Assembly: GCA_903642255.1 (NCBI GenBank)
Contig: CAHJWP010000002.1
Span: 1 to 51,151, forward strand
DNA: 51,151 nt
Reading direction: 5' to 3'
Source of the DNA: Sphingomonadaceae bacterium
GTDB lineage: Bacteria > Pseudomonadota > Alphaproteobacteria > Sphingomonadales > Sphingomonadaceae
Shown here piece after piece: positions 12,146 to 44,115 of this stretch. The notes below the pieces were generated by a model that ran no database searches, was not told where the DNA came from, and saw only the letters and a list, made by a program, of their open reading frames with translations. The translations under genes and the position numbers were made by a program. The number at the start of each line of letters is the position of its first letter. Position 1 is the first letter of the stretch.

Positions 12146-12164
12146 TTGGAAGGGTGTAAGATCA

Positions 12165-12204
12165 CTCCGGCACGATAACATTGTCACAACTTTTCGTGCC
12201 GGAG
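12165..12204. repeat. 11-bp inverted repeat, possible element end or TnsB site
   Basis: CTCCGGCACGA (12165-12175) and TCGTGCCGGAG (12194-12204) are perfect inverted copies separated by 18 bases that contain the small palindrome TTGTCACAA. It lies just beyond the 3' end of the tniQ-like gene, where the left end of the element is expected. A TGT at 12155 could be the terminal triplet. The alternative is a tniQ terminator, but the loop is long and there is no T-run. Confidence 0.6.
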
Positions 12205-12210
12205 AAATCC

Positions 12211-12247
12211 CCCGGGATATCCCCTTCGAGCTACATCTCGATCAGCG
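12211..12247. repeat. 37-bp partial copy of a tniQ-internal segment
   Basis: 29 of 37 bases match 12750-12786, which lies inside the tniQ-like gene and there encodes LTENRIEGDIPGN. In one minus-strand frame the outer copy reads LIEM, a stop, then LEGDIPGD. It may be a remnant of a second tniQ end or a repeated protein-binding sequence. Confidence 0.6.
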
Positions 12248-14158
12248 CGAAAGCAGCAAGTGCACACCCTTCCTGTCGACCGCGGCGCGGCACCAGCCGC
12301 CATGCAGGCGCGGTACGCCTGCAGCCCCCAGTATGTGATCCCATCGCCGACCACTCGTCGTGGAGAGAAGTGCTAGCTCCTTCGTGAAGATGATCTGCGT
12401 CGATAGCTTCCGCAGGCTGATGCGATCTACGCCCTTGCCCCGTCGGGTTTTCATGACCGGCAAGCCTGCGGAAACCGCCGCTGCGTTTCCCTCCTGGGCA
12501 TCGCAGCCGAGAACATCCGAAGTGTCGCGTAGGGCGATGAGATCGGTATTGAGTGGATCTGCCTTCAGGTCGGTCGGGGGTTCGCCCCAGGCGGCGAGCG
12601 AAAGCGGATCGACATGGATGGTCCGGCCGGTAGGAACAGGACCCTTCACCCGAAATGGAATCTCGCCATCACTGAGCGCATGGATGACGCGTCCCCACGG
12701 TTTCTCTCCCTGGAATTGCGCCATGGCTCGCCGTAGGGGCATCCAGTTTCCCGGGATATCACCTTCGATACGGTTCTCGGTCAGCGACCTCGCCAGTCTG
12801 TCCGCGCTCGCCTTGCCGACTTGAGGGCCCCGCAGGATGATCACGCCGGGATCGTCGATGACATCGAGCACGCCGCGGATGGCTAGCTGACCTACCGCGT
12901 AGACCGGAATGTCGAATCGGACGGCGATCGTTCCGTCGGCATCGCAATCTGCGAGCCTCGCTCGCAAACGGTCTACGTCATCGGCATCGTACCGAGCGCG
13001 TGTCCGTTGACCACTTGGAATCTCGTCGAACCCGATGACCTTGCCGTCGCGCAACGCCTTCAGCTTCGCACCGCAGGTCCACAATATGTCGTTCACGCTC
13101 TTCGCCAGATAGTAACGCTGACCCGTGGAAAGTGCATCTGCGATGCCCGAGTTCAATTTGGGAAACGCTGTCGCGATCACGTTCCTGCCCTCTTCGTCCG
13201 ACGAGGCGCCCGCGGCCACCCAGCGGACATCTGCGATCAGTTGCTGATACGCCTTCCGTTCGCCAGCGATCTCCGTCTCGCGAGCTTCCACATAGGCTCG
13301 CAGGCCGTTCGGCCAATCGGACAGCATTTCCATCCCGCGGCATACGACGTCCGTTATCGTCGTCGAGTCGTGTTCGAACAGGCCGTTCTTGCCGCCGTTA
13401 TAAATCCAGACATCCCGGCACCTCATGCCGATGCGCAACGCCATACCGACGAGTGTGGATCGCGAAAACCCGCGGAGAGCGTCGGGCAGTCCCGAGACGA
13501 CTTGTCGTGCGGTGACGCCATTCGACGATACGAGTCGTGCGAAGTCGCGATAGGGCTCCACCATCCGTGCCGGGAGCATTGGTTCCGGGGACGGTGGCAC
13601 CGGCCTTCCGCATTTGTCGCAGTTCATCATGCCCCGCGCGTACATCCATCCGAGCGGACCGCATATCGGACAGGATTGCACGAGCAGTTCGAGGCTTTCG
13701 GGGCAGTATGGGAGCATGCGGTTAAGCCAGGCGCCTCGGTGATAGTCGTGGCTGGCTAGGGAGCGGGGACCGATCCTGCGGACCGTGAGATCGATGGCGC
13801 CGCGGGAGACCACGAGGTCGCCCAGGAGGATCTTGTTATGGCGGTCCGGGTGCGCACGGTATCCGACCGTCGCCACCGCTGTAGCGCTGCACCGCATGAC
13901 GCGGGCCATTGTCGCGAATTGTCGGTCGTCGCCGATCTGGAGGTTGCCGATGTACCTGGTCGGGAGATCGGCGCCCTTGGCGGCGACATCGAGGTGCGTG
14001 ACGCCACTTGCGTCGCAGGCTTCCGCGAATGCACCGATCGCGCTGCCGCCCGCGACCGGGACGTAGGAGAGCCGCAGACGCTTAATACCGGAACGGCCCA
14101 TCTCCTCACCATCGGCTTCTGCGATGGACATAGATTCCGGGACCGGGTGTCCGGTCAT
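12242..14158 (-). CDS. tniQ: TniQ/TnsD-like target-selection protein
   Basis: Predicted target-site selector of a Tn7-like transposon, expected to bind DNA and recruit the TnsC ATPase. A zinc-binding cluster typical of TniQ lies at about residues 152-183 (YCPESL, CPICG, CDKCG). The long C-terminal half (to residue 638) resembles the DNA-binding extension of TnsD-type proteins. The ATG at 14158 overlaps the tnsC stop (ATGA); an upstream in-frame ATG at 14197 would bury it further in tnsC. It is the last gene of a four- or five-gene leftward operon. Assignment rests on the zinc cluster and the gene order more than on overall sequence. Confidence 0.8.
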   Translation of the reverse strand: MTGHPVPESMSIAEADGEEMGRSGIKRLRLSYVPVAGGSAIGAFAEACDASGVTHLDVAAKGADLPTRYIGNLQIGDDRQFATMARVMRCSATAVATVGYRAHPDRHNKILLGDLVVSRGAIDLTVRRIGPRSLASHDYHRGAWLNRMLPYCPESLELLVQSCPICGPLGWMYARGMMNCDKCGRPVPPSPEPMLPARMVEPYRDFARLVSSNGVTARQVVSGLPDALRGFSRSTLVGMALRIGMRCRDVWIYNGGKNGLFEHDSTTITDVVCRGMEMLSDWPNGLRAYVEARETEIAGERKAYQQLIADVRWVAAGASSDEEGRNVIATAFPKLNSGIADALSTGQRYYLAKSVNDILWTCGAKLKALRDGKVIGFDEIPSGQRTRARYDADDVDRLRARLADCDADGTIAVRFDIPVYAVGQLAIRGVLDVIDDPGVIILRGPQVGKASADRLARSLTENRIEGDIPGNWMPLRRAMAQFQGEKPWGRVIHALSDGEIPFRVKGPVPTGRTIHVDPLSLAAWGEPPTDLKADPLNTDLIALRDTSDVLGCDAQEGNAAAVSAGLPVMKTRRGKGVDRISLRKLSTQIIFTKELALLSTTSGRRWDHILGAAGVPRLHGGWCRAAVDRKGVHLLLSR

Positions 14159-15171
14159 GGCGTTCCCCTTCTCGAGAAGGGATCCCGGTGGATCCATTTC
14201 AGTCCAATCGCGAACTCGCGCGTTGCGACGCTCAGATCATGCGCCTCGACTACGGGGGATCCGCGCAGGATTGCATTGCGGGCTGCCTCTTCCACGACGC
14301 GGCAGACCCGCCCGACGTGTCCTCCGCTCACATGCGCCAGGGGCGTCCGCAGTCCTCGCTTGCCCAGACCGCTCGGGCGATCGAGCAAGCCTGCATTGAC
14401 GAGATCGGCGTCAAGTTGAACGCAAAATTTCATCAGTATCTTCGCGTCCGCTATGCTCCCGGCGTAGTCGAGAGGCTTGAGCTTCAGCGGGGTGCTGAGC
14501 CGCGTCGCGAACTTATCGTTCTTATCGAACAATTTATCGGCATCTTCGTCGCCCACGAGTATCAATGGCAAGATCCCTCGGTTGAGGAACGTTTTGAAAC
14601 GGTCAGTGACTTCCTTTGCATCGGTGGTCTTGCGATCAAGGTGCTGCACCTCATCGCATATGATACCTTTTACGTTGAGCGCTTTTCCTAGTTTGTTGAT
14701 CCGCTCTTCAAGATCGTCCAATGTTTCCCTCTTGTCGTTCCAGTGGTCATCACCCATCAAGCGAAGAATTTGCCGGAAAAAAGCGTAAACCGTCGTCGTC
14801 TTGTCGAGTTCGACGCAGAGCAGTTCGTACGGATTTGGAGCCAACCCCTGCTCGGCACGCAGCTTCCTCATTACTTCGAGCAGCCGTTCGATCATGCGCG
14901 ACTTGCCGGCGTTGCTGTATTCGGATAGGCGGCGGCCGTTCATGCTCCTGCCCCGCAGCTTCTGAACTCCGTTTAAGTAGCTTACGAGCTGTTTGACAAG
15001 TTTCTCCTGCGGCTCGTGTTCGATCCAGTTCGTCTTGAAGAACTCTTCGAGCCGTTCTGCGCGTGCGAGCCGGTCTTGGTTCGACCAGTCCGGCACGGCA
15101 TCTCCCAATATGTGCTTCGGTTGCACACCGTAGGGGTCGAGCGGCTCGGAAGGCGTTGTTTCATTCGGCAT
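14155..15171 (-). CDS. tniB: TnsC/TniB-like AAA+ ATPase
   Basis: ATP-dependent regulator that links target selection to the transposase. Walker A is the TniB-type variant SNAGKSRM (Lys90, Ser91) and Walker B is GIICDEVQHL (Asp173, Glu174); a sensor-1-like stretch is LPLILVGDEDA. The chosen start, ATG at 15171, lies inside the last codons of tnsB and has GAAGGCG upstream; 15177 is an alternative. The frame is open to 15366, but that part only overlaps tnsB. The product is 338 residues, normal for the family. The stop overlaps the tniQ start. Confidence 0.92.
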   Translation of the reverse strand: MPNETTPSEPLDPYGVQPKHILGDAVPDWSNQDRLARAERLEEFFKTNWIEHEPQEKLVKQLVSYLNGVQKLRGRSMNGRRLSEYSNAGKSRMIERLLEVMRKLRAEQGLAPNPYELLCVELDKTTTVYAFFRQILRLMGDDHWNDKRETLDDLEERINKLGKALNVKGIICDEVQHLDRKTTDAKEVTDRFKTFLNRGILPLILVGDEDADKLFDKNDKFATRLSTPLKLKPLDYAGSIADAKILMKFCVQLDADLVNAGLLDRPSGLGKRGLRTPLAHVSGGHVGRVCRVVEEAARNAILRGSPVVEAHDLSVATREFAIGLKWIHRDPFSRRGTP

Positions 15172-17389
15172 CGTCATCGCCTTCTTCACCCCAGTCGATG
15201 CCATCGTCCGCATCGTCTGCTTCCTCCGAGCCGGAATGACCCGCCCCCGATCCATGTTCGTCTTCGGGTTCGTGCGCGCCCGATACGACCTGCGGATGCT
15301 GACCCGTCCAGTCTCCGATAGGGGTGATGGGCCCGCGAACCACTTTGTCGACGTCCTTCTCAGCATGCGATTGCAGCGGACCTTTGGGGATGCCGTCGCG
15401 ATCTCGTCCCTGGCTCACCACCGCCTCCTCGATCCTGAAAGCGGCGAAGTCGGTCATGTCGGAAGTTTCTCGGACATGTCCTCCACGCACGCGGATGCGT
15501 CCGGCCTCGATGACGGCCGCCGCCTTCTTCGCGATTTGGAATGGTTTGTTGTGCAGGTCCTCCCATGCGCGTTGCAGTCGAGTGCCTCGGACAAGGGCGT
15601 TCTCCTCGTCCGTCGGTGCGCCCGTGGCGCCGGCGCGCTGGGCCTGCACGTGGAAGTTGTGTTCGTATCGCGTAAGATGTGTCGTATAGTCCGGATCGGT
15701 GGACCACATCGGGACGAAGTCGTTGTTCGCCTCATCCAGGATCTCGATCATGTCGAGGTTCCAGTCGTAAACCTTCATCCAGACATCGCAACGGGCGGTG
15801 CCGGTCAGGCGCTTCGTGAACGCCTGGGCTGCCAGGTTCTCTGAAAGCGTGTTCGTGACGCCCGTGCGATTCCAACGATATCGGATCCCGTCGAAGAAGG
15901 CGCCGTCGGTGGTGAGCACGCCTCTCACGGTGCGCGCCAGGTTTCGGCGTACCTCTTTCGGATCGTTGAACCGGATCCGATTGATGGCTGCATGTTCCAG
16001 CATCACGTCATTGGGTGTGCGTCCGCCGAGGGCGTCATGACCGGTATCGTTCCATTCCAGACGGAGCTGCTCGTACCTCCAGGAGATGCTGTCCCGGGAC
16101 ATCGTCGCTTCGGTCATAGGATCGCGCCTGAACGAACGGCGCCGGCTACGAGGCGATAGCACCGTCCCTGGTTCTCCTTCCATCCTGCCCTTCACCCACC
16201 CGAAATAGGCCTCGACGTCCGACTTCTCGTTCGGGCCATACTTCTTCGCCAACTCCACCTTGCCAATGACCGTAGTCAGGTTGCTGATCGCAGTTGGCGG
16301 AAGGATGGCTTTTTCGTTGTCCCCGCGGAGGCGTCCTATCCGGCCCGAACACATAACGAGCGCGGGGTTGGACTTGAGTGTCTCGTCGTCGAGTAACGGC
16401 GGCGTCAGCGCGTTCATGAGTGCCAGCATGCCCATTTCGCTTCTATACGGACCGGCGAATGGCGGGGCTGGGAACGCGAAGAGCGAGAAGGAATCGATCA
16501 GCTGCACCACCTTCATCTTGGCGCAGACGATTTCTGCATCATCCGAGAACCGGCATACCTGGCGGAATTCCGTGCCGTCGATGAAGACCAGGTCGAAAGG
16601 GCGTCGCCCTCTGCTCATCTCGCCCGATCCGACGAAATGACGATCCGCCTGCTCCTTGCCGAACTTCGTTTCCCACGTCTGCTTGCATTCGTTCGCGTTG
16701 ATCCGGTTGATGACGGTCGTCTTGGTCGGCGCCTTGTCGCCGATGTCCTCGACGCCCTGGGCCTTCAGGCCGTGCCATGCCGTCGTGACGAGGGCGTTCG
16801 CGTCCATCTTCTGCAGCGCCTCGACCGACCAGAAGAGCGCCATGGACTGGTGGACGAGCCTGTCGGCGATGCACGGGAGTGGGGAACTCCCGGATTGGCG
16901 GCCGCTGCGATTCCGCATCGCGCCGATCCGGGCCCCATGGTCCTCGAGATTGGACATCCAGCGGATGAGCGAGCGGCCGCAGATCGGACCGAACCCGTCC
17001 GGTATTCGCTCCGCGGCGAATGCTTCGAGCGTCGCGGCGTTGCGCGGCTTGCCAGCGGCGAGTGCGGCGATGGCGAGGTCGTACTTCAGGACCGAGCGGG
17101 GTTCCTGGATCAGGCAAGTGGCCCGGTCCATCTTGAGAAACCGGGCCCGCCATTCGCCAAGCGCCGCCTCGGCGGCGGTTTCCTCGTACACGTCGCCGTT
17201 GGCGAAGTTGCGCGCCAGCCATAGGAATGTGGGCCGGACGCGGACACTGTCGTCCGTCACGAAGTACTCGTCTTGCGTTCCCTCAACGACGAACCTGGCG
17301 ACGAAGTCGTCGATCCATTCGACGAAGACGATCCGCGTCCCGAGATGATTGAAGACCGTCCCGTGCGGGATTACGGGCACCATTTTCAT
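15161..17389 (-). CDS. tnsB: TnsB/TniA-like DDE transposase
   Basis: Retroviral-integrase-type transposase that cuts and joins the 3' ends of the element. The catalytic triad is visible: Asp271 in LVFIDGTEF, Asp357 in LRGDNEKA and Glu393 in SDVEAYFGWVK. N-terminal HTH regions precede the core, and a Mu-type beta-barrel follows (RGVLTTDGAFFDGIRYRW). The C-terminal 60 residues are acidic and probably contact TnsC. At 742 residues it is of normal size for TnsB. ATGA overlap with tnsA upstream and a 10-base overlap with tnsC downstream show tight translational coupling. It appears catalytically intact. Confidence 0.94.
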   Translation of the reverse strand: MKMVPVIPHGTVFNHLGTRIVFVEWIDDFVARFVVEGTQDEYFVTDDSVRVRPTFLWLARNFANGDVYEETAAEAALGEWRARFLKMDRATCLIQEPRSVLKYDLAIAALAAGKPRNAATLEAFAAERIPDGFGPICGRSLIRWMSNLEDHGARIGAMRNRSGRQSGSSPLPCIADRLVHQSMALFWSVEALQKMDANALVTTAWHGLKAQGVEDIGDKAPTKTTVINRINANECKQTWETKFGKEQADRHFVGSGEMSRGRRPFDLVFIDGTEFRQVCRFSDDAEIVCAKMKVVQLIDSFSLFAFPAPPFAGPYRSEMGMLALMNALTPPLLDDETLKSNPALVMCSGRIGRLRGDNEKAILPPTAISNLTTVIGKVELAKKYGPNEKSDVEAYFGWVKGRMEGEPGTVLSPRSRRRSFRRDPMTEATMSRDSISWRYEQLRLEWNDTGHDALGGRTPNDVMLEHAAINRIRFNDPKEVRRNLARTVRGVLTTDGAFFDGIRYRWNRTGVTNTLSENLAAQAFTKRLTGTARCDVWMKVYDWNLDMIEILDEANNDFVPMWSTDPDYTTHLTRYEHNFHVQAQRAGATGAPTDEENALVRGTRLQRAWEDLHNKPFQIAKKAAAVIEAGRIRVRGGHVRETSDMTDFAAFRIEEAVVSQGRDRDGIPKGPLQSHAEKDVDKVVRGPITPIGDWTGQHPQVVSGAHEPEDEHGSGAGHSGSEEADDADDGIDWGEEGDDDAE

Positions 17390-18369
17390 GCGGCGACCTT
17401 TTCGACGAACTTTGAGAGCAATGCTCGCAACGCGAAGGCCTCGGCCGGACGCGGCGCAGTCACGGGCGTGGCGCCGTGGGGCTCTCTCGTTAGGCTGAAG
17501 GACACGACGCGCCGCATCAGCATCGCATAGAGCTTGTCGACAGCGTCGGCCCGTACGGCACCGATTACCGCCACGGCATCAGCGTAGCGCGCACAGCCTC
17601 CCGATGCCGTGATCATGGCGCGCACGGCGGCGGCCTCCGCGGGATTGACCGGCGTCAGGCGCGCATTCATCGCGATCGCATGAGCGGCGAGCGCGTCCTC
17701 CTGGCGGTAGGGCATGCCCTTGATGCGCAATAGGCGCGGGATGCCGATCGAACCCAGGGCAAGATCGATCCGATCAAGGGGACGCTTTATGGCTGGCGCA
17801 TCGAACCAGGTTTCGTCGGACTTTATCTCACCAAAACGGACGCTGTTGTCCTCAAACTCAATGCAGATGTCGGGATATTTGTGAATGAGACGCCCGTCAT
17901 CTCGACGAAACGTCATGTCTATCGGCTGCATCTGGAAGTTGAGACAGGTGGTACTCATTTCCAGCCGGTCGGCGACCGCCGGTTCGTTCGGGCCGTCGAG
18001 GAACTGCGTGCGATGCGTTTTCGCGAAGAACCCCGCGGAGGTACCGAACGACTGACTGTAGTTCATGCTCGTTCTGACGTGGCCGAGATCGTCGGCGGCG
18101 CGGATACTAACCAGCGTCCAGCGCGCTGGATCGATCGACCGATCGATCGACGGATCCTCGAGCAGACGCTTCGGTACGGGCTTAACCGGATGACGCGGGG
18201 GACGGCGCGTCGGATTCCAACCGATGGGCGGACGACGGTCCTTGTCCAATCCATCCGCCAGGTGCGGCACCATCGTTGCGTCAATGGTCACATTTGTGCC
18301 GGCGAACTGTTCGTCACCGGATTCATCGCCGTCATCCGACGCGACGGGTGTCCCGACGTCACGCAGCAT
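17386..18369 (-). CDS. tnsA: TnsA-like heteromeric transposase endonuclease subunit
   Basis: Restriction-enzyme-fold nuclease that cuts the 5' ends of a Tn7-like element, allowing cut-and-paste movement. The core reads HKYPDICIEFEDNSVRFGEIKSD, giving Asp167 in the PD motif and Glu181-x-Lys183, with an upstream Glu in the NEPAVADRLE helix. A further 140 residues match the TnsC-contacting C-terminal domain in position. Length is 327 residues. Its ATG overlaps the stop of the preceding TnsA-like gene (TAATG), and its stop overlaps the tnsB start (ATGA). Confidence 0.85.
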   Translation of the reverse strand: MLRDVGTPVASDDGDESGDEQFAGTNVTIDATMVPHLADGLDKDRRPPIGWNPTRRPPRHPVKPVPKRLLEDPSIDRSIDPARWTLVSIRAADDLGHVRTSMNYSQSFGTSAGFFAKTHRTQFLDGPNEPAVADRLEMSTTCLNFQMQPIDMTFRRDDGRLIHKYPDICIEFEDNSVRFGEIKSDETWFDAPAIKRPLDRIDLALGSIGIPRLLRIKGMPYRQEDALAAHAIAMNARLTPVNPAEAAAVRAMITASGGCARYADAVAVIGAVRADAVDKLYAMLMRRVVSFSLTREPHGATPVTAPRPAEAFALRALLSKFVEKVAA

Positions 18370-18935
18370 TACTGGCTGCCGCCCGCGGTCGGGCGCATCG
18401 TTATGGCGATCCGGCGATCGTCAGGCGCGCGTCTAGGATCGCGAACAAATCCGAGACACTCGGCGACGGTTGACTTCAATTGGTTCGTGACCATGGTCGC
18501 GGCTGCGATACCGACCAACGGGAGCGCTGCGCCGATGTCAGGCGTAGAAACTGTGATGGTGAGATGGGACATGCCAAGGAGGCGTGCCGCGTGGGCGTTC
18601 ATCGCGTAGCGTATGAAATTATCGTCTTCGACGAGATCAACGATGGTGGATTGCCCGCCGCAGACGACGAGACACGTCGGCACGTGCGACCACACGCGAT
18701 CTTCGAGAGGCGTCTGGATTTCAAACCAGCTCGTGTCCACCGCCGTGATGGATGGGGATAGTCTGACGGCCTCGATGAACTGGGACACGAACGCGAGACC
18801 ACAGGCACTTCCATAACCGGCGTGCTTTTGTGTAGCGGTGTCGTACGTTACGATGATGCCCGGTTCAGTCAGCACCATTCGCACAGACCCATCATTAGCG
18901 ACTGCACAGTAGGAGTTCACATTCGCCCCAAACAT
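18369..18935 (-). CDS. TnsA-like protein lacking nuclease residues
   Basis: 188-residue protein whose layout parallels the neighbouring TnsA: a hydrophobic strand, then SWFEIQTPLED, then SHVPTCLVVCGGQSTIVDLV, then a helix and LTITVSTPDI. At the PD position it has Pro-Thr (Thr87), and where TnsA has E-x-K it has Asp100-Leu-Val102. The fold seems kept and the active site lost, so a structural or regulatory subunit is inferred. Start 18935 was chosen for a GGAG 7 bases upstream; ATG 19004 is an alternative and the frame is open to 19262. It heads the tns operon, is coupled to tnsA by TAATG, and is divergent from the TnsB-like gene at 19026. Homology is by eye and moderate. Confidence 0.6.
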   Translation of the reverse strand: MFGANVNSYCAVANDGSVRMVLTEPGIIVTYDTATQKHAGYGSACGLAFVSQFIEAVRLSPSITAVDTSWFEIQTPLEDRVWSHVPTCLVVCGGQSTIVDLVEDDNFIRYAMNAHAARLLGMSHLTITVSTPDIGAALPLVGIAAATMVTNQLKSTVAECLGFVRDPRRAPDDRRIAITMRPTAGGSQ

Positions 18936-19025
18936 CACATTGCTCCATCGTAGCAGCCTAGTTCCGGACGATATGGAAGAATCTTCAGATGAATCAAGTC
19001 GCATGATTCGGCGTGAGCGCGTGTC

Positions 19026-20117
19026 TTGCTGAACGGCATCGATCGAGAGGACGTTCTCGCTCGCGCGTATCCGGGTGGGGTGCCGGCCGCAGAGCGGGCC
19101 CATGTTGACGCACTTCCGTCTGACCAGGCCGCCGTCGTTCTCAGAAGGCTCGACGCTATCCTCCGCACCGGTAGCGGTGAACTCACGCCCGGCGAAGGCG
19201 CGGTCGCCGCGGGCCTCGGCAGGACCGCATTCCATGCGGCTCGGCGTACCTGGAGCGCGCACACCTCGCTATTCGAACTGACGCCGTACGCGATGGTAGA
19301 GCGGCGGGAGGCAATAAACTTAGGCGGATCGGTCGATGCCGTTCCGGTCGCCAAAGCAGTGGTGGCGCAGACCCCCAGCTATGTCTCGGCGCATCATATG
19401 GCGATCGAGACGGTGCGACGAAGCAAGAACGCCGTATCGTACAACACCGCGCTTCGACTTGTGCGTGCCGCCCGGCGCGGGTCGGTCACCGATCCGGAGT
19501 ATCTATTGGAGCATTATGGTACCGGGATCGTAATCGACTTGTGCGCGATCGACCTGCCCCTCACCATTTACGACGGCGATGAACTCGCTGTCGCGGCGCT
19601 GGTAATAGAAAAGTCCGCCGGACTGCTGCTTGGTGTCGCGGCGGGGCCGAAGATGGCCGAACGCGAACTGCAGTGGGAAGCGGTCCGAAGAGCTCGCGAC
19701 ATGCTGCGGGTCGAACGGATCGACACTGCCGCCGACGCGCAGACCGTGCAGGTCGCGTGGGTGAAGGGGAATATATCCGCGCCCGTCGTCCCGGATCCGG
19801 GATCCGCTCGCTGGGAGGTAGTCTCGTCCGGAAGTCGCCGGTTCGGAACAAGAGCCGTTTCGGCGCTGGGCAAACGTCTCGGCCGCATCTCACTGATGCC
19901 ACGCGCAACCAGTTGGCAGGAACCCGTCCCCTGGAGAGTTATGGCTTCGCGTTCTCCGGTCAACCCCGAGGATGCGGATAGTCTGCTGCTGTACGAGGCG
20001 GCAAATCACAATGGTCCGATACTCGAGGCCCTACGAAAAGCCGAGCGACGTGGTCTCCAGCTGAACGAGGAGGGCAGCATCGGAACCGTCCTCGGCCAGC
20101 TGGCTGAGCACATCTAG
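19026..20117 (+). CDS. TnsB-like protein without complete DDE triad, copy 1
   Basis: 363-residue protein. Residues 30-80 look like a helix-turn-helix (LTPGEGAVAAGLGRTAFH). Residues 166-205 form an RNase H-like strand pattern of the transposase core, IVIDLCAIDLPLTIYDG then ALVIEKSAGLLLGVAAGP, with an Asp at the first catalytic position. No D-N/E pair follows where TnsB has them. The block LGKRLGRISLMPR (281-293) matches LGRKPGGIRLKPR in the convergent gene at 20140, so the two are paralogues. The start is TTG at 19026, the only start codon in the open frame. It is divergent from the TnsA-like gene. A DNA-binding or regulatory role is inferred. Confidence 0.6.
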   Translation: MLNGIDREDVLARAYPGGVPAAERAHVDALPSDQAAVVLRRLDAILRTGSGELTPGEGAVAAGLGRTAFHAARRTWSAHTSLFELTPYAMVERREAINLGGSVDAVPVAKAVVAQTPSYVSAHHMAIETVRRSKNAVSYNTALRLVRAARRGSVTDPEYLLEHYGTGIVIDLCAIDLPLTIYDGDELAVAALVIEKSAGLLLGVAAGPKMAERELQWEAVRRARDMLRVERIDTAADAQTVQVAWVKGNISAPVVPDPGSARWEVVSSGSRRFGTRAVSALGKRLGRISLMPRATSWQEPVPWRVMASRSPVNPEDADSLLLYEAANHNGPILEALRKAERRGLQLNEEGSIGTVLGQLAEHI

Positions 20118-20139
20118 GATCAGATCCGGCGTGCGCGAT

Positions 20140-21159
20140 TCATTCCACCGGGAACGCGGCGCGCAGTCTATTGAGGATCGCCTCGGGCACGTCGACCCCC
20201 GCTTCCTCGCCGCTGATCCATCGCTCCCTGAGGAAGGCGGCAGCCTCCTCCCGTAGGACGGGCGTCCCGCCTCTGGGGATGTTGGCGGGTCGCGCGATGA
20301 AAGGGCGTCGCGAGAGCCTGGGCTTTAATCGTATCCCGCCCGGCTTCCGGCCTAGTAGCCGCAGCGTGGCGACGGGCGGCGACGGCTCCTGCGTCCTGTG
20401 GACGACGACGTCGCAACCGGTCGAATGCAGTCTGACCAGCAGCCTATCCCAGTCCGCGCCCTTCAGGAGCTGCGCGTATATCCTGGGCCTTACATTTTCT
20501 TCTCCGGACGATCGCATCCTCGCGATCGCTTCGCCGAGGGCGGCGACGACGCTTGCGACGCTGGGTCGTTCGAGGGACATCTCGATGCCGAGGATCGCGG
20601 GTTCGGCGACGCGGGTCACGATCGTGGCGATTGGCATCATGCCCCGACCTCCGTGGTTCTTGACGACGCCGACGTCAACGACGCTATGCTCTATCACGAG
20701 TACCGCGCCCGCGGCGGGCAGGACATCCGGCAGCCGCCCCGTGGTTCCGATGGCGATGTGCTTGATGACCGCCGCCTGCCCGGGCATGCGCACGGTCAGT
20801 TCGCGTGCGATCTCCATGGCGCGTTCGGCGATCCGTTCCATAATCGCACCGGGCAACTCGTCTATCGCCTGCCGAATGACGGCCGCCTGTTCCGGCGGCA
20901 GGGGCGGATCGGTCTCCTGTGTGGCTCGGCCCGTGAAACGTCGAGGATCGGCGTTCTCCTTCCAAGCCCGAACCAGACGCCGGAAGGACACCGCCGTGAT
21001 GCCGATCTCATCAGCCGCCGTAGAGGCGGGATAGTCCTTGGGGTTGTCGATGTATTTCCTGATAGCGGTGATGCGCAGTATCACCTCTTCACGCCGGTGG
21101 GCGGGCACGGTATCGAGACCCGGAATGGTTGTTCTATCAATCATCGTTTTTCCGTTCAC
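20140..21159 (-). CDS. TnsB-like protein without catalytic triad, copy 2
   Basis: 339-residue paralogue of the 19026 gene. Residues 45-70 give a helix-turn-helix (ASTAADEIGITAVSFRRLV). The core pattern is AVLVIEHSVVDVGVV, then MPIATIVTRVAEPAILGIE and RPSVASVVAALGEAI, which follows the D1 region of Mu/TnsB-type transposases, but the first catalytic Asp is Glu157. The LLGRKPGGIRLKPR block ends the core. GTG at 21159 has AGGAA six bases upstream; ATG at 21144 is an alternative. An SOS box (21154-21168) overlaps the GTG. It ends 22 bases from the end of copy 1, with the two genes facing each other. Confidence 0.6.
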   Translation of the reverse strand: MNGKTMIDRTTIPGLDTVPAHRREEVILRITAIRKYIDNPKDYPASTAADEIGITAVSFRRLVRAWKENADPRRFTGRATQETDPPLPPEQAAVIRQAIDELPGAIMERIAERAMEIARELTVRMPGQAAVIKHIAIGTTGRLPDVLPAAGAVLVIEHSVVDVGVVKNHGGRGMMPIATIVTRVAEPAILGIEMSLERPSVASVVAALGEAIARMRSSGEENVRPRIYAQLLKGADWDRLLVRLHSTGCDVVVHRTQEPSPPVATLRLLGRKPGGIRLKPRLSRRPFIARPANIPRGGTPVLREEAAAFLRERWISGEEAGVDVPEAILNRLRAAFPVE

Positions 21160-21168
21160 TATATGTTC
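21154..21168. promoter_or_regulatory. SOS (LexA) box, GTTC-N7-GTTC
   Basis: GTTCACTATATGTTC matches the alphaproteobacterial LexA consensus exactly. It covers the GTG start and the ribosome-binding site of the TnsB-like copy 2 and lies 111 bases upstream of the AbiTii gene, so it could control either or both. Confidence 0.7.
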
Positions 21169-21278
21169 CTACAAAGAAACTTTCCAATGCCTTTTATGAT
21201 CTGTGCGCACGTCCGGTTTGTTTGCTCCGCGTCGCATCTAGGCGTGGCCCGCGTTCGCATCCGGGATGGATCGAGGTG

Positions 21279-22163
21279 ATGGTTGGATTAGTCGAGCAGC
21301 TTCAGCAGGACGCCATGGACCAGTCCGTGAGTGTCGCAACGCTGCTACGGAAGGTGAAGGTCGCCGCAGTGAAGCTGGCGTTGAGTGACGCGCTGTCTTG
21401 GGTCGAACCAGAACTTAGTGGCTACCCGTCAGGCGACGTACCGGCTTATCGTATCGGTCGCGGAGCTCTTCGGGCCCAAGATCGGTGGGCTAGATGGACG
21501 GACTTTCATATAAGCGATGGCGATTTGTCAGCAACTATGTCGACGGTTTATCTCTTGGAACCCGTTGGAAGCTATGAAAGGCTCTTAATAGGCGATGCTG
21601 GTACCCTAAGCATGCCAATGGCATCTGAGACCGTTCATAAAGTACGCGAGATGTTCAGCTTAGAAATCTACGCAATATCAACGACCATTCCACGAGGTGT
21701 GATCAGCAAGGTTGTCGATCACGTTCGCAACATGGCGCTAGACTGGTCCCTTGAACTCGCACGCGCCGGTATCACCGGCGACGGTCTTTCCTTCACTCCG
21801 AGAGAGAGGGAGCGGGCAAAGGAAGCACATATCACGATCGGCACATTCAACGGCAGCTTCAACACTGGCGACGCCTCCGGCGTAAACGCGCGAATCAATC
21901 AAGGCTCACAGGATAGTTCGACGAATGCGTCCAGGGGCTCGATCTTCGATCAGATCGCTGTCGCGACGCAGGAAGGGGTGAACGACCGGTGCGACCGTGA
22001 CCGCCTACTTCAGGCTAATGAAGCGATGAAGAATGCGACTGAACAGTCTGGCTTTGCGAAGGCATATGCGACGTTCATGGCGATCGCATCCGACCACATC
22101 ACCGTTTATGGGCCGCTGCTCCCACCGCTGGCTGTCTATCTTTCGCAACATTGGACGCCTTGA
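21279..22163 (+). CDS. AbiTii-domain protein (putative abortive infection)
   Basis: 294-residue cytosolic protein. Its N-terminal 70 residues fit the AbiTii domain: LVEQLQQDAMDQSVSVATLL, then KLALSDALSWVEPELSGYP and VPAYRIGRGAL. AbiTii domains occur in phage-defence loci, but the mechanism is not established. The rest contains a Ser/Thr/Asn-rich stretch (GTFNGSFNTGDASG) like those of predicted oligomeric or RNA-binding modules, then a helical end. ATG 21279 was chosen because the domain begins there. Its GC content is lower than that of the core genes, fitting transferred cargo. Confidence 0.75.
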   Translation: MVGLVEQLQQDAMDQSVSVATLLRKVKVAAVKLALSDALSWVEPELSGYPSGDVPAYRIGRGALRAQDRWARWTDFHISDGDLSATMSTVYLLEPVGSYERLLIGDAGTLSMPMASETVHKVREMFSLEIYAISTTIPRGVISKVVDHVRNMALDWSLELARAGITGDGLSFTPRERERAKEAHITIGTFNGSFNTGDASGVNARINQGSQDSSTNASRGSIFDQIAVATQEGVNDRCDRDRLLQANEAMKNATEQSGFAKAYATFMAIASDHITVYGPLLPPLAVYLSQHWTP

Positions 22164-22192: not shown

Positions 22193-22212
22193 TGCTTGCT
22201 CGGAAGCGAGCA
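22193..22212 (+). terminator. Possible terminator after AbiTii gene
   Basis: TGCTTGCT and AGCGAGCA pair over eight positions (one G-T) around a CGGA tetraloop, 30 bases after the AbiTii stop. The T-run that follows is weak. Confidence 0.4.
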
Positions 22213-22335
22213 TAATCTCCTAAAAAATCCCTGTATTTTCCTCCTTATCGCATTCCTTTCGTGTCCGATTTGGAACGAAGCTCAAGCATCAGGCGAAATG
22301 AGGACGTCGCCAGTCATCGTCACCGGCGCAATGGT

Positions 22336-22350
22336 GTTCCCAATATGTTC
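22336..22350. promoter_or_regulatory. SOS (LexA) box upstream of umuD
   Basis: GTTCCCAATATGTTC is an exact GTTC-N7-GTTC match ending 10 bases before the chosen umuD start. Its position helps to decide that start, since longer umuD frames would place the box inside the gene. Confidence 0.82.
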
Positions 22351-22360
22351 TCCTATCGCT

Positions 22361-22816
22361 ATGTCCGACGTCCCTAGCCGGATGGGACCGATGGCACTGA
22401 TTCTCCATGACGTAACGTTCGAGATGGTACCGACCGAGGTTCGCCTCCTGACGGCCATGACACCCGCTGGCTTCCCCTCTCCTGCCCAGGACGACATGGA
22501 GGAGCCAATCGACCTGGCATCCTGGCTGATCGACCACCCCGCCGCGAGCTATGTCATGCGGGTGTCGGGGCATTCCATGGTTGGAGCCGGAGTTGCCGAC
22601 GGCGATATGGTCGTCGTCAGTCGCGCGGTCGAAGCACGGTCCGGCGACATCGTTGTGGCTCTGGTCCATGGCGACCGGACGATGAAGCGGCTTCGTCGTC
22701 GCGGGGATCGGATGTGGTTGGTGCCGGAAGCCGAGGGGTTGCCCGCCATCATCGTCGACGAGGACGTTGAGATATGGGGCGTCGTCGTCGCTCTCGCCCG
22801 CCGCTACCGGACATGA
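22361..22816 (+). CDS. umuD: UmuD-like SOS mutagenesis protein (S24 peptidase)
   Basis: Self-cleaving partner of the translesion polymerase UmuC. The cleavage site Ala36-Gly37 lies in TPAGFPSPAQDD, the catalytic Ser72 in RVSGHSMVGAG and Lys109 in GDRTMKRL. The C-terminus VEIWGVVVALARRYR is typical. The frame is open back to 22196, but the SOS box lies within that stretch, so the ATG at 22361 (or 22382) is preferred; the product is about 151 residues. Its stop overlaps the umuC start (ATGA). It is intact although its partner is broken. Confidence 0.9.
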   Translation: MSDVPSRMGPMALILHDVTFEMVPTEVRLLTAMTPAGFPSPAQDDMEEPIDLASWLIDHPAASYVMRVSGHSMVGAGVADGDMVVVSRAVEARSGDIVVALVHGDRTMKRLRRRGDRMWLVPEAEGLPAIIVDEDVEIWGVVVALARRYRT

Positions 22817-24080
22817 GCGCGATCGCGCTCATCGACTGCAATAATTACTACGTCAGCTGCGAGCGCGCGCGTTCGACGCCAAACTGGTAGGCATCCCCGT
22901 CGTCGTCGCCAGCAACAATGACGGGTGCGCCATCGCCCGGTCGCAGGAAGCCAAGGCGCTCGGCGTGAAGATGGGCGATCCCATTCACCTGATCCGCGAC
23001 CGGTTGGACAGGCACGGCATGCGGGTGATGAGCAGCAACTACACCCTGTATGGCGACATGCAGCGCCGTGTGCTGGCCGCGGTCGAGGACTTTGCGAGCG
23101 AAGTGGAAATCTACAGCATCGACGAGAGCTTCCTAGATCTGACGCCGTTCGCCGATCGCGATCTCGTCGCCCACGCCAACGCAATGTGGGACCAGGTCCG
23201 GCGATGGACGACGATACCGACGCGCGTGGGGATCGGCCCGACGAAGACACTGGCCAAGCTCGCGAACGCGGCAGCTAAGAAGAACCCGTTGTTCGATGGC
23301 GTAGCCGACCTGCGTGAGGATGCGCTGCGGAACTGGGTGCTCGACCGCTTTCCCGTAGGAGATGTGTGGGGCGTGGGACACGCAACGGCCGGGAAGCTGG
23401 CGGCGTTGGGCGTATCGACCGCCGGACAGCTACGCGACATGCCTATGAAGCAGGCCCGCGGTATCGGGACCGTCGTTCTGGAACGTCTGGTTGCCGAACT
23501 TCAGGGTGTGCCGGCGAGCGCCGTCGAGATAGTCGAGCCGCAGCGAAAGGGCATGGCTGTCCCCCGATCGTTCGGCGGCTACGTCAGCGACAAGGAAGCG
23601 ATGATGGGCGCGATGGCCCAATACGCGATGCGCGCCGGTGAGAAGCTACGATCGCATGGACTGGTAGCCGGGCAGCTCACGATCTTCTTCCACACCAACA
23701 AGCACAAGCGGGAGCGACCGCAGTATGGCGCTCAGCGCCGGATCAGGCTGCATCCGATGACCGCGGACTCGCTCGAATTGCTGGCGGCCGCCCGACGCGG
23801 GGGTGAGCCGTCCTGGCGCGACGGATAAGAATTCAGCAAGGCGGGCATCATGCTCGACGACCTGGTCGCGGCCGAGCTTCGACCGCGGACGCTGTTCGAG
23901 GACGATGTCGATCGGCGCGAGCGGTTGATGACGGCGCTCGATGTCGTGAACGACCGGTTTGGGAAGTTCTCAGCGGTGCCAGCGGTCCAAGGATTTCGGC
24001 GGGATTGGAAGGCGCGGTCAGATAGCCGGTCGCCGGCATGGACGACGCGGCTTGCGGAGGTGCCGGTCGTTCGAGCGTGA
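22813..24080 (+). pseudogene. umuC: umuC, broken by a 2-base insertion and a nonsense codon
   Basis: Y-family DNA polymerase V catalytic subunit. From ATG 22813 it reads MSAIALIDCNNYYVSCERA and then loses frame: an extra CG in a GC run near 22870-22871 leads to a stop at codon 26. Two frames over, the protein resumes at FDAKLVGIPVVVASN (from 22872) and stays in frame through YSIDESFLDLT and RVGIGPTKTLAKLA. At 23826 a TAA interrupts RDG-stop-EFSKAG, after which the same frame continues to the normal end, PAWTTRLAEVPVVRA at 24080. Both lesions lie in otherwise well-kept coding sequence, so inactivation is recent, or the dinucleotide change is a sequencing error. Confidence 0.9.
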
Positions 24081-42045: not shown

Positions 42046-43018
42046 AGACAACCTCCGATACAAACCGGTGTCCGCCGCGTCGGCCGAGCTGAATGAACAC
42101 CCCGATTGAACGGCGAACATAGTCGCGTACGTCGCCAGCGTTCAGTTGCGTACCGCCTTGAAGTACCAGCAGCACGATCTGCTCGATTGCGCCAGCGGCG
42201 CTATCGGCGTGGACCGTGGTCATCGAGCCCGGATGTCCGGTATTGACCGCACGCAGGAACGCGAACGCCTCTCGCCCGCGCAGTTCGCCGAGGATGATGC
42301 GATCGGGGCGCATGCGCAGCGAGGCGGAGACGAGGTCGTCGGCGCTGACTTGCGCTTCGCCGAGATTGCCACGCACGGCGAGCAGAGCGACCGTGTTGGC
42401 GTGTGGGACGCGCAGTTCGGGCGTGTCCTCGATCGTGATCAGCCGTTCGTCGGCTGGGATCTCACGGATGAGCGCATTCAGGAACGTGGTCTTGCCCGTG
42501 GCCGTACCGCCAGAAACCAGGATGTTGCGCCGAGTGCTTACCGCGGTGCGAAGCGCGCTCTCTATATCGCCGCGTGCAAGCATGTCGACGATGGTCTCAC
42601 CGGGTTCGTCGATGGTCTCGAGCTTGCCGGTGCGCGCACCGTGGAACGCGCCAGCCTTTGCATAGTCGCCGAGAGAGAGATCGGCAGATACATGCTTGCG
42701 GATTGCGATCGCCCAGTCGCCGCGGGTGGCGGCCGGCGCGACCACTTGCACGCGCGAGCCGTCGGGGAGGCTCGCGGAAAGCAGCGGATGTTCCCTGCTG
42801 ATCCCCTGATGCGACAGTGCCGCGATCTGGCGGGCAAGACGGGCCAAGGTCGAAGTGTCGAGCGCGGGTGCATCATAGCGCTCGATCGCGCCGCCTAGCG
42901 TCTCAATCCAGAGCTCGCCGGGGCGGTTGACGTAGATGTCGGTGATGTCCGGGCGAGCGAGTGCCTCGGCAAACGGTGTCAGATAGCTTGTGAGGTAAAT
43001 ACCCGCTGGCGCGTTCAC
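42038..43018 (-). CDS. virB11: VirB11 secretion ATPase
   Basis: Hexameric traffic ATPase at the inner-membrane face of the type IV secretion channel. Walker A is SGGTATGKTTFLN, Walker B RIILGELRGREA, and the His box TGHPGSMTTVHADSA. The 326-residue length is normal. The start is GTG at 43018, overlapping the virB10 stop (GTGA). Confidence 0.95.
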   Translation of the reverse strand: MNAPAGIYLTSYLTPFAEALARPDITDIYVNRPGELWIETLGGAIERYDAPALDTSTLARLARQIAALSHQGISREHPLLSASLPDGSRVQVVAPAATRGDWAIAIRKHVSADLSLGDYAKAGAFHGARTGKLETIDEPGETIVDMLARGDIESALRTAVSTRRNILVSGGTATGKTTFLNALIREIPADERLITIEDTPELRVPHANTVALLAVRGNLGEAQVSADDLVSASLRMRPDRIILGELRGREAFAFLRAVNTGHPGSMTTVHADSAAGAIEQIVLLVLQGGTQLNAGDVRDYVRRSIGVFIQLGRRGGHRFVSEVVCD

Positions 43019-44115
43019 CGGCCGCCATCCGTGTCAGTGAAGTCCAGATCGCGCGCGACGAAAACGCTGACGCTGGTGCCTTGAGCCACCCGCAGGGTCG
43101 GGCGGATATTGGTCGGCGTCTGGATGAGGTTCGCGCCCTGGACCGAGCCGGGCAGCGCGACGATGGTCGGCGATCCGCTGCTGCGGGACGCTAGGTTCAC
43201 GCCCACATCGAGTGTCGACTGAAGGATCGCGCCGGCGAACCGCGCGAAGAAGTGATTGTTGACGTCGGCCTTCACGCCCCCGCGACCAACCGGATCGGCG
43301 ACCGGCGAGCCGATCGCGATGGTGACTCCGTCGGGGCGGATCAACCTGGACCAGGCGATCATCGCGCGGTTCTGGCCCTGCGCAGTGTCGGCGGCGTATT
43401 CGCCGATGAGGCGACTGCCGCGCGGGATCAGCACTTGCGTGCCGTCGAACCCGCGGATGTCGCGCTGGACGAGCGCGCGGGCGAACCCGGGCCGCGTGCT
43501 GTCGAACGCGGTCTCGAGGACAGCCGGGATCAGTGTGCCTTGCGCGACCGTGGTCGACCGGTTGGCGAGGGACCCGGCGCGCACGCGGCTGGTGGAGGTC
43601 GGCGCAGCGAGCGGGTTGTTGTCGTTGCCGTTCCGACCGTTGTTCGTGTCTGCATTGGTCTGAGAGCTGTCCACCACCAGCGCGGCACCGCCACCGTTGC
43701 GCGCGGGCGTTGCAGCTTGGGATTGAGGGGCCGGTGCTGGCGCCTGATAAGCGACCGCAGGCGGGGGCGCTGTAGCTTGCTGGAACCCGAGTGGTCGCGG
43801 CTGTGCAGGCAATGGCGCGATCGGTGCTTGCTGAGCGAAGGACTGAGCGGGCTGTTCGGGCGGCGGTGGAGGCAGGTATAACGGCGGCGGTGCCTGGACA
43901 GCGATATCGCGCGCATGATCCTGCACCGCGGGTGCGCTTGCCGCCTGCCGCCTGGCGTTGAGGACGCTGAACAAAATTAGTGCCAGCACGAGCGCGATGC
44001 CGATGATGGCAAGGTTCGACAGTCCGCCCCGCGGCGTATCGACCACCGGACGGATGTCGCGTTCGCGCATAGCCGGCTCTAGCCGGGGATCGCTGTTCGG
44101 CGGCACGCTGCTCAT
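43015..44115 (-). CDS. virB10: VirB10/TrbI family protein
   Basis: Channel component spanning both membranes. One N-terminal membrane segment (LAIIGIALVLALILFSVLN) is followed by a Pro/Ala/Gln-rich periplasmic region and the TrbI domain (GTLIPAVLETAFDSTRPGFA, VLIPRGSRLIGEYAADTAQG, DPVGRGGVKADVNNHFFARF). 366 residues. The ATG overlaps the virB9 stop (ATGA). Confidence 0.94.
   Translation of the reverse strand: MSSVPPNSDPRLEPAMRERDIRPVVDTPRGGLSNLAIIGIALVLALILFSVLNARRQAASAPAVQDHARDIAVQAPPPLYLPPPPPEQPAQSFAQQAPIAPLPAQPRPLGFQQATAPPPAVAYQAPAPAPQSQAATPARNGGGAALVVDSSQTNADTNNGRNGNDNNPLAAPTSTSRVRAGSLANRSTTVAQGTLIPAVLETAFDSTRPGFARALVQRDIRGFDGTQVLIPRGSRLIGEYAADTAQGQNRAMIAWSRLIRPDGVTIAIGSPVADPVGRGGVKADVNNHFFARFAGAILQSTLDVGVNLASRSSGSPTIVALPGSVQGANLIQTPTNIRPTLRVAQGTSVSVFVARDLDFTDTDGGR

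Follow-up and report, generated by a model that had tools for sequence, protein, structure and literature searches.

Tn7-like transposons are used both as models of targeted DNA insertion and as tools for it; how they stay quiet and how relatives share a cell are poorly understood. Those closest in TnsB to the element described here, the I-F3 group of CRISPR-associated transposons (CASTs; Tn6677 and PseTnsAB), share with it the gene order tnsA-tnsB-tnsC-tniQ, encoding a PD-(D/E)xK endonuclease (TnsA), a DDE transposase (TnsB), a TniB-type ATPase (TnsC), and TniQ. According to structural reports, two of the protomers in TnsB complexes of ShCAST are structural (PMC9527255, PMC9371665), and the C terminus of TnsB contacts TnsC (PMC9371665). 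The stretch of DNA analyzed here (the window) is an entire contig of 51 kb (51,151 nucleotides) from a Sphingomonadaceae bacterium whose genome is 71% complete. It carries a Tn7-like core that differs from those of the described transposons by two extra, apparently dead TnsB-like genes beside tnsA, designated BX1 and BX2, which recur in related elements and appear to move between them as a unit.

BX1 and BX2 are, judged by their sequences, catalytically dead relatives of TnsB and TniA and paralogues of each other. Their profiles match with an hhalign E value of 3e-29 (probability 99.8%; hhalign E values refer to a single comparison). BX1 matches the TnsB profile at 2.5e-9, or 2e-10 (96.9%) in a second comparison, and BX2 matches it at 3.2e-4 (38.7%) with 10 rows and 7e-7 (91.9%) with 26 rows. 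TnsB is also the best PDB sequence for both profiles (4.1e-8 for BX1; 0.0096, marginal on its own, for BX2). BX1 further matches the TnsB model of PADLOC (2.2e-4) and, in tblastn, transposases of Rhizobium and Agrobacterium (best, ∼1e-4). PHROGs, NCBIfam, and Pfam gave nothing usable for BX1, BX2, or the neighboring frame AX (see below), and a scan of genome contigs for close BX1 relatives gave 24 pattern matches, none of them confirmed. Mapped through the profiles, the DDE triad is complete in 28 of 28 TnsB proteins but in 0 of 23 BX1 and 0 of 26 BX2 proteins. The first catalytic Asp is kept in 9 of 23 BX1 proteins and, as D171, in 26 of 26 BX2 proteins, none of which has Asp or Glu at the other two mapped positions; the BX2 triad was counted via the BX1 mapping, and direct mapping on TnsB shifts the second and third positions (to P256 and S270 in the window copy). 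The BX1 alignment has 23 rows, with L013 present twice and L010, L014, L098, L099, L113, and L114 left out, and the BX2 alignment has 26, without L111.

The predicted fold of BX1 comprises TnsB-type helix-turn-helix (HTH) units and an RNase H domain. The AlphaFold model from 21 sequences (predicted local distance difference test [pLDDT], 84.8; predicted template modeling [pTM] score, 0.71) has two HTH-like units and an RNase H-like core, judged from helices and strands, and no beta-barrel was seen in it; BX1 also lacks a C-terminal extension corresponding to the TnsC-contacting part of TnsB. In Foldseek, TnsB and MuA make up the top eleven chains, led by ShCAST TnsB (1.3e-10); whole-chain TM-scores do not exceed 0.34 because the domains are placed differently. 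In VIA-align, which re-examined the Foldseek matches only, BX1 reaches Z 10.7 with the transposase of the TnsABCD complex (root mean square deviation, 4.4 over 168 residues) and Z 10.4 with ShCAST TnsB (∼20 over >200 residues). Taken by itself, the RNase H part lacks specificity, since retroviral integrases also reach Z of ∼8 to 9; it is the Foldseek ranking, the coverage of the HTH units, and the sequence profiles together that identify BX1 as TnsB-like. The first-pass annotation, made from the letters of the window, had described two TnsB-like proteins without a full DDE triad, and this description stands: the fold predicted for BX1 is not an unrelated one, and BX2 is its paralogue by profile.

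Related loci were gathered by a TnsB search of 248 other genomes of the family (8 loci), from plasmids of Sphingomonas parapaucimobilis and Novosphingobium, and by searches of 296 genomes of the order with the BX1 and TnsB alignments; counts from the order- and class-wide searches apply among the matches listed per genome. The gene map comprises 32 loci, of which 30 are evaluable, L116 and L117 ending at contig ends. BX1 and BX2 both lie beside tnsA in 27 of these 30, a count to be read with the fact that 18 of the mapped loci (L029 and L098 to L114) were chosen because they hold BX1; of the others, L014 has one permuted BX copy and L017 and L115 have none. Anchored on TnsB instead, the counts of loci with at least one BX gene are 7 of 8 for the family search and 14 of 15 for the order search; the latter covers evaluable loci whose TnsB E value was <1e-100, a set that includes the window and two loci of the family search. 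The two genes are convergent, with BX2 adjoining tnsA, in 26 of the 27 loci, and are in tandem in L105. Each of the 20 BX-type loci of the order search has a tnsB match no more than 10 kb away, so the linkage of the BX genes to the tns operon suspected in the first-pass annotation holds; a further match was a 301-amino-acid frame beside a 698-amino-acid transposase (genome G273). In the class search (385 genomes), BX1 proper was recognized only in the family of the window. Seven other genomes matched, six via frames of 515 to 660 amino acids, which are taken to be full-size transposases, and one via a 207-amino-acid frame.

Chance is excluded for both TnsB-like genes because both recur in other loci. 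It is also very improbable that they are functionless, decaying remnants of earlier transposase copies: catalysis has been lost and some copies are broken or rearranged (BX1 of L099 spans two frames, and the BX frame of L014 is permuted), but most frames are open, position and orientation are conserved in more than 10 genera, D171 is kept throughout BX2, and the HTH columns are conserved.

Several BX genes depart from the common form (Table 1). In L010, L113, and L114, three of the 27 loci with both genes, the RNase H core of BX1 is missing and its first HTH unit is duplicated. The sole BX gene of L014 has its domains reversed, with the RNase H part before the HTH part in one open frame. In L013, two BX1 copies alternate with a BX2 fragment and a complete BX2, an arrangement that looks like the insertion of a second cassette.

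Several lines of evidence indicate that BX1 and BX2 have been exchanged between elements as one cassette, largely independently of the core. First, pairwise distances among the 26 loci with all six genes (without L014, L017, L109, L115, L116, and L117) are correlated among TnsA, TnsB, TnsC, and TniQ (r, 0.62 to 0.72) and between BX1 and BX2 (r, 0.50; Mantel p, 0.002), whereas r between BX and any core gene is 0.00 to 0.18 (Mantel p, 0.010 to 0.478). Noise alone does not explain the weak correlation, because TnsA, which is as short as BX1, still tracks TnsB (r, 0.69). Second, FastTree trees of BX (BX1 plus BX2) and core have 1 of 23 splits in common, whereas the trees of BX1 and BX2 share 7 of 23 and those of TnsAB and TnsC plus TniQ share 13 of 23. 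Of the BX splits with support of at least 0.95, 9 of 11 conflict with equally supported core splits (6 of 8 with TnsAB for BX2 alone), compared with 3 of 17 in the control comparison of TnsAB with TnsC plus TniQ. Third, similarity in one part is not accompanied by similarity in the other. L101 and L102, a pair of elements on the same contig of a single genome, are 64 to 79% identical in core proteins and 25 to 27% identical in BX, or 70% against 26% in summary; L111 and L112 are 57 to 74% identical in core (TniQ, 57%) and 22 to 24% in BX. Conversely, L029, L098, and L099 are 37 to 53% identical in BX and 14 to 29% in core, in summary 41 to 46% against 19 to 24%, with TnsB at only 14 to 17% for L098/L099 and L029/L098. 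L104 and L110 are intermediate (core, 54 to 74%; BX, 39 to 40%). At the DNA level, L101 and L102 are similar only from the start of tnsA onward; the contig begins at BX1 of L101, and the upstream DNA is not comparable. L111 and L112 share two short similar stretches upstream of BX1, the stretch from BX1 through BX2 and the following gap is unalignable, and similarity resumes within tnsA. This pattern suggests that the BX pair is a plug-in control module rather than dead weight.

The exchange also favors control over a fixed structural part. BX1 and BX2 might replace the noncatalytic TnsB protomers in a hetero-oligomeric end complex, possibly asymmetric between the ends. In the ShCAST strand-transfer complex, two of four TnsB protomers have a key structural part, with active sites that are not competent (PMC9527255); BX1 has HTH units and an RNase H core, and two distinct paralogues are retained together. 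A part packed against TnsB should, however, co-vary with it, and the correlation is only 0.17 to 0.18. BX1 shows neither the beta-barrel nor the C-terminal part, and two related elements (L017 and L115) do without BX. We consider such subunits rather unlikely; BX is not an obvious fixed structural subunit, because it barely tracks TnsB and three BX1 proteins have no RNase H core.

The same comparisons bear on target choice. A BX1-BX2 selector recruiting TniQ and TnsC, like TnsF of Tn6022, would agree with the modularity of selectors and with the co-option of dead enzymes for this purpose by Tn7-like elements described in PMC10293859. L111 and L112, however, sit at the same chromosomal site with syntenic tniQ-side flanks despite their different BX pairs, which argues against target choice for at least this pair. 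Their islands, of 48 and 59 kb, are replaced by 2.4 to 3.1 kb in five of six congeners (G238, G352, G834, G840, and G850, not G846). The argument loses force because both islands end, on the far side, at a tRNA-Arg(tct) gene, an island hotspot, and a larger integrative island may carry the transposons. The converse idea, that similar BX means the same insertion site, was unsupported by comparison of flank proteins: in the stretches compared, L029, L098, and L099 have no run of at least three flank proteins in common up to 15 kb from the tns genes. Distances of BX and TniQ are uncorrelated (r, 0.00 to 0.05), and a TniQ of TnsD size is already present. A role in target selection is therefore improbable.

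A third alternative is that the BX proteins are dominant-negative blockers that occupy the TnsB end sites and keep transposition low. DNA-binding units combined with an RNase H fold without catalysis would suit such a role. The pair has nevertheless been exchanged between elements whose TnsB proteins are 14 to 17% identical, so that shared end sites are unlikely unless the ends change too, and we regard end blocking as distinctly improbable.

We postulate, tentatively, that BX1-BX2 is an element-specific DNA-binding control module, with DNA sites, repression, and immunity that we infer. The pair would have derived from TnsB or TniA, keeping the HTH DNA-binding units and, mostly, the RNase H-like core and losing catalysis, the beta-barrel, and the TnsC-contacting C-terminal region. 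The proteins would bind sites within the cassette or close to it, one candidate region being the gap between BX2 and tnsA, which ranges from overlap to 1.35 kb; once bound, they could repress, or license, tns expression or end assembly, and closely related elements in one cell would thereby be heteroimmune. A self-contained control cassette that moves along with its own sites would fit these findings: the pair is present in most elements, lies beside tnsA, is jointly exchanged, and is divergent between coresident elements. A DNA-binding regulator also fits BX1 of L010, L113, and L114, since there the RNase H core is gone and the first HTH unit is doubled. In a more specific form, which is possible but which we advance with greater reserve, BX1-BX2 would be swapped together with the tnsA promoter region as a heteroimmunity cassette that lets near-identical elements coexist without cross-control.

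Several observations weigh against exchange as a control cassette. The correlation between BX and TnsB is small but present (p, 0.010 to 0.012). BX1 alone has four well-supported splits, none of which conflicts with TnsAB and two of which conflict with TnsC plus TniQ, so that the tree conflict comes mainly from BX2 and from the joint alignment. Some rows are fragments (TnsB of L103, L104, and L110; TnsA of L113; and BX1 of L010, L099, L113, and L114). No shared operator-like DNA was found, the gaps between BX2 and tnsA being no more alike in loci with similar BX (Spearman 0.08, p 0.19, for gap similarity versus BX similarity; 30 shuffles per pair, L111 left out), and in the window this gap is occupied by AX. 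Finally, the far transposon end was not located, so the placement of the BX genes inside the element is very likely rather than certain.

Table 1. Coordinates of features in the window and, where a locus or genome is named, in related loci
Feature	Position	Strand	Remarks
Hairpin just past tniQ	12160-12209		
tniQ	12242-14197	minus	651 amino acids, TnsD size; homologous to TniQ of sister loci
tnsC/tniB, AAA+ regulator	14155-15366	minus	Pfam TniB 1.1e-14, AAA_22 5.7e-12
tnsB, DDE transposase	15161-17389	minus	D271, D357, E393
tnsA, PD-(D/E)xK endonuclease	17386-18369	minus	D167, E181, K183
AX, orphan frame	18369-19004	minus	211 amino acids; codon-position GC 0.57/0.50/0.65, coding-like
BX2, TnsB/TniA-like	19026-20117	plus	363 amino acids; start codon uncertain
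BX1, TnsB/TniA-like	20140-21159	minus	339 amino acids (334 from 21144)
AbiTii-like gene	21129-22163		beyond BX1
S24 peptidase gene	22196-22816		UmuD-like
Y-family polymerase gene	22965-23828		
TrbI-like conjugation protein	43015-44115		
BX1 without RNase H core	L010:11269-12075		
BX1 without RNase H core	L113:6070-7191		
BX1 without RNase H core	L114:11046-11756		
Sole, permuted BX gene	L014:1633-2823		
Alternating BX1 and BX2 copies	L013:4850-9115		
TnsB in two frames	L104:5964-8392		
TnsB in two frames	L110:9504-11980		
Small TnsB-N-terminal-like frame	L026:12138-12659		
Small TnsB-N-terminal-like frame	L012:4455-5228		overlaps BX2
Small TnsB-N-terminal-like frame	L109:3323-3685		
Small TnsB-N-terminal-like frame	L114:9274-9978		overlaps BX2
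Small TnsB-N-terminal-like frame	L105:5057-5722		beyond BX1
Island between the flanks shared by L111 and L112	G414:C1:613415-661607		
Island between the flanks shared by L111 and L112	G377:C1:147536-206207		

The Tn7-like core of the window (Table 1) is real and, from its reading frames and residues, looks intact. The TnsB triad D271/D357/E393 is invariant in all 28 aligned family members, the window copy included, and in TnsA D167 and K183 are invariant and E181 is at least 90% conserved (28 aligned). The TnsB alignment has 28 rows, without the divergent L100 and the split TnsB proteins of L103, L104, and L110, and the TnsA alignment has 28, without L100, L113, and L114. Against the PDB, the TnsB family profile matches TnsB structures down to 3e-79 (2.8e-78 for I-F3 CAST TnsB, 9y7b, and 1.9e-20 for Tn7 TnsB, 7pik), and the TnsA family profile matches PseTnsAB at 6e-9. 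Pfam names only TnsC among the four core proteins of the window, the others being highly divergent: rve is found in 14 of 28 TnsB family members and Mu-transpos_C in 9 of 28, with the window TnsB in neither set; the TnsA N-terminal domain is found in 9 of 28 TnsA members, the window TnsA not among them; and Pfam TniQ is passed by three of eight family TniQ proteins scanned (L111, L112, and L108), with L029 below the cutoff and the window TniQ, identified via its family only, giving no match. The identity of the window tnsA, tnsB, and tniQ is settled because the family alignments match known TnsA, TnsB, and TniQ, and the tniQ product is the likely target selector. In L104 and L110, from two genera, TnsB is split into two overlapping frames just past the catalytic domain; the second frame may start at an ATG (L104) or a GTG (L110) overlapping the stop. 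TnsB of L103 is likewise split, at a different point.

The leftward tnsA-tnsB-tnsC-tniQ operon with its catalytic residues had thus been read correctly in the first-pass annotation, which had placed three extra genes at its head, as part of a second, dead set of TnsA and TnsB. That reading was too strong. BX2, on the plus strand, is convergent with BX1 and divergent from tnsA and so lies outside the operon, and of the supposed dead set, it is the two TnsB-like proteins that are supported. The frame described as a dead TnsA, AX, is unproven as such and is not conserved: its sole match in 247 other genomes of the family was one fragment (E = 0.0085), and nothing significant was found against the TnsA and TnsB profiles. 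In single-pair comparisons, its best TnsB core score (z, 5.9; 28 compared) exceeds its best TnsA score (z, 3.5; 28 compared), and the single-sequence AlphaFold model is unusable (pLDDT, 33.5). AX can be aligned by eye to either TnsA or TnsB, and neither assignment is backed by any profile. Four loci (L026, L012, L109, and L114) have a small frame resembling the TnsB N-terminal domain at or near the place of AX, between BX2 and tnsA, and L105 has one elsewhere; these frames are roughly 120 to 270 amino acids long.

Repeats resembling GGAGCAAGCTTGTGCAA, spaced 31 to 32 bp apart, occur within ∼200 bp after tniQ in L111, L016, L112, and L029 (read partly by eye in L029) and are likely TnsB sites of the tniQ-side end; no such repeats were recognized in the window. 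A de novo inverted-repeat search for transposon ends was swamped by GC-rich coding and intergenic repeats, and a candidate far end in L112 was dropped, as by eye it lies inside a tyrosine-integrase gene. The hairpin just past tniQ in the window, with 11-bp perfect inner arms (CTCCGGCACGA and TCGTGCCGGAG), is perhaps a terminator. L029 (19396-20000 and on) and L011 (G187:C6, ∼133 kb) share a tniQ-side chromosomal flank whose first gene encodes a NUDIX domain; the distance from tniQ to this gene is 243 bp in L029 and 4.7 kb in L011. Beyond BX1, the window continues with the AbiTii-like, S24 peptidase, and Y-family polymerase genes, and the TrbI-like protein encoded in the right-hand part of the contig points to a possible conjugative element there.

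As far as searched, the BX pair is a real and recurrent supplement to the genes of one clade of Tn7-like elements and has apparently not been described before. Inactive TnsB paralogues in such elements were not reported in the literature covered, with supplements and most subscription papers outside the search, and the accessible parts of PMC8649781 and PMC11406308 yielded no dead TnsB. Among the frames searched, the active proteins most closely related to BX1 are the TniA proteins of TnsA-less TniABQ elements: BX1 scores 68 bits against TniA of Chelativorans and 17 bits against the best resident TnsB. TniA of Chelativorans is a full transposase whose annotation includes a Mu-type C-terminal domain, whereas the BX proteins have ∼300 to 390 amino acids and no triad. 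The Chelativorans plasmid carries three TniABQ sets, one with its transposase in two frames (L027:14989-16643).

Two accessory proteins of Tn7-like elements invite comparison. TnsF of Tn6022 is an inactivated tyrosine recombinase that serves as a target selector; like BX, it is a recombinase that has lost catalysis and been recruited by a Tn7-like element (PMC10293859). Unlike this tyrosine recombinase derivative, the BX proteins are paired RNase H/DDE derivatives, and in the single pair of loci compared they do not track the target. CvkR, the repressor of V-K CASTs, is likewise an element-encoded regulator but is of MerR type and, unlike BX, neither transposase derived nor paired (PMC9938897).

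The BX pair is an unusual case in which relatives of a DDE transposase are retained as accessory proteins by the very kind of element that such transposases mobilize, and it is a concrete, testable candidate for the control of Tn7-like transposons. Among regulatory cassettes outside transposons, immunity regions make lambdoid phages heteroimmune. The likeness lies in a regulatory cassette that is exchanged between otherwise similar elements and permits their coresidence; the difference is that the comparison is an analogy only, in which repression and immunity by BX are what we infer. If it is true, the heteroimmunity cassette would be the transposon counterpart of the phage immunity region, built from the transposase itself.

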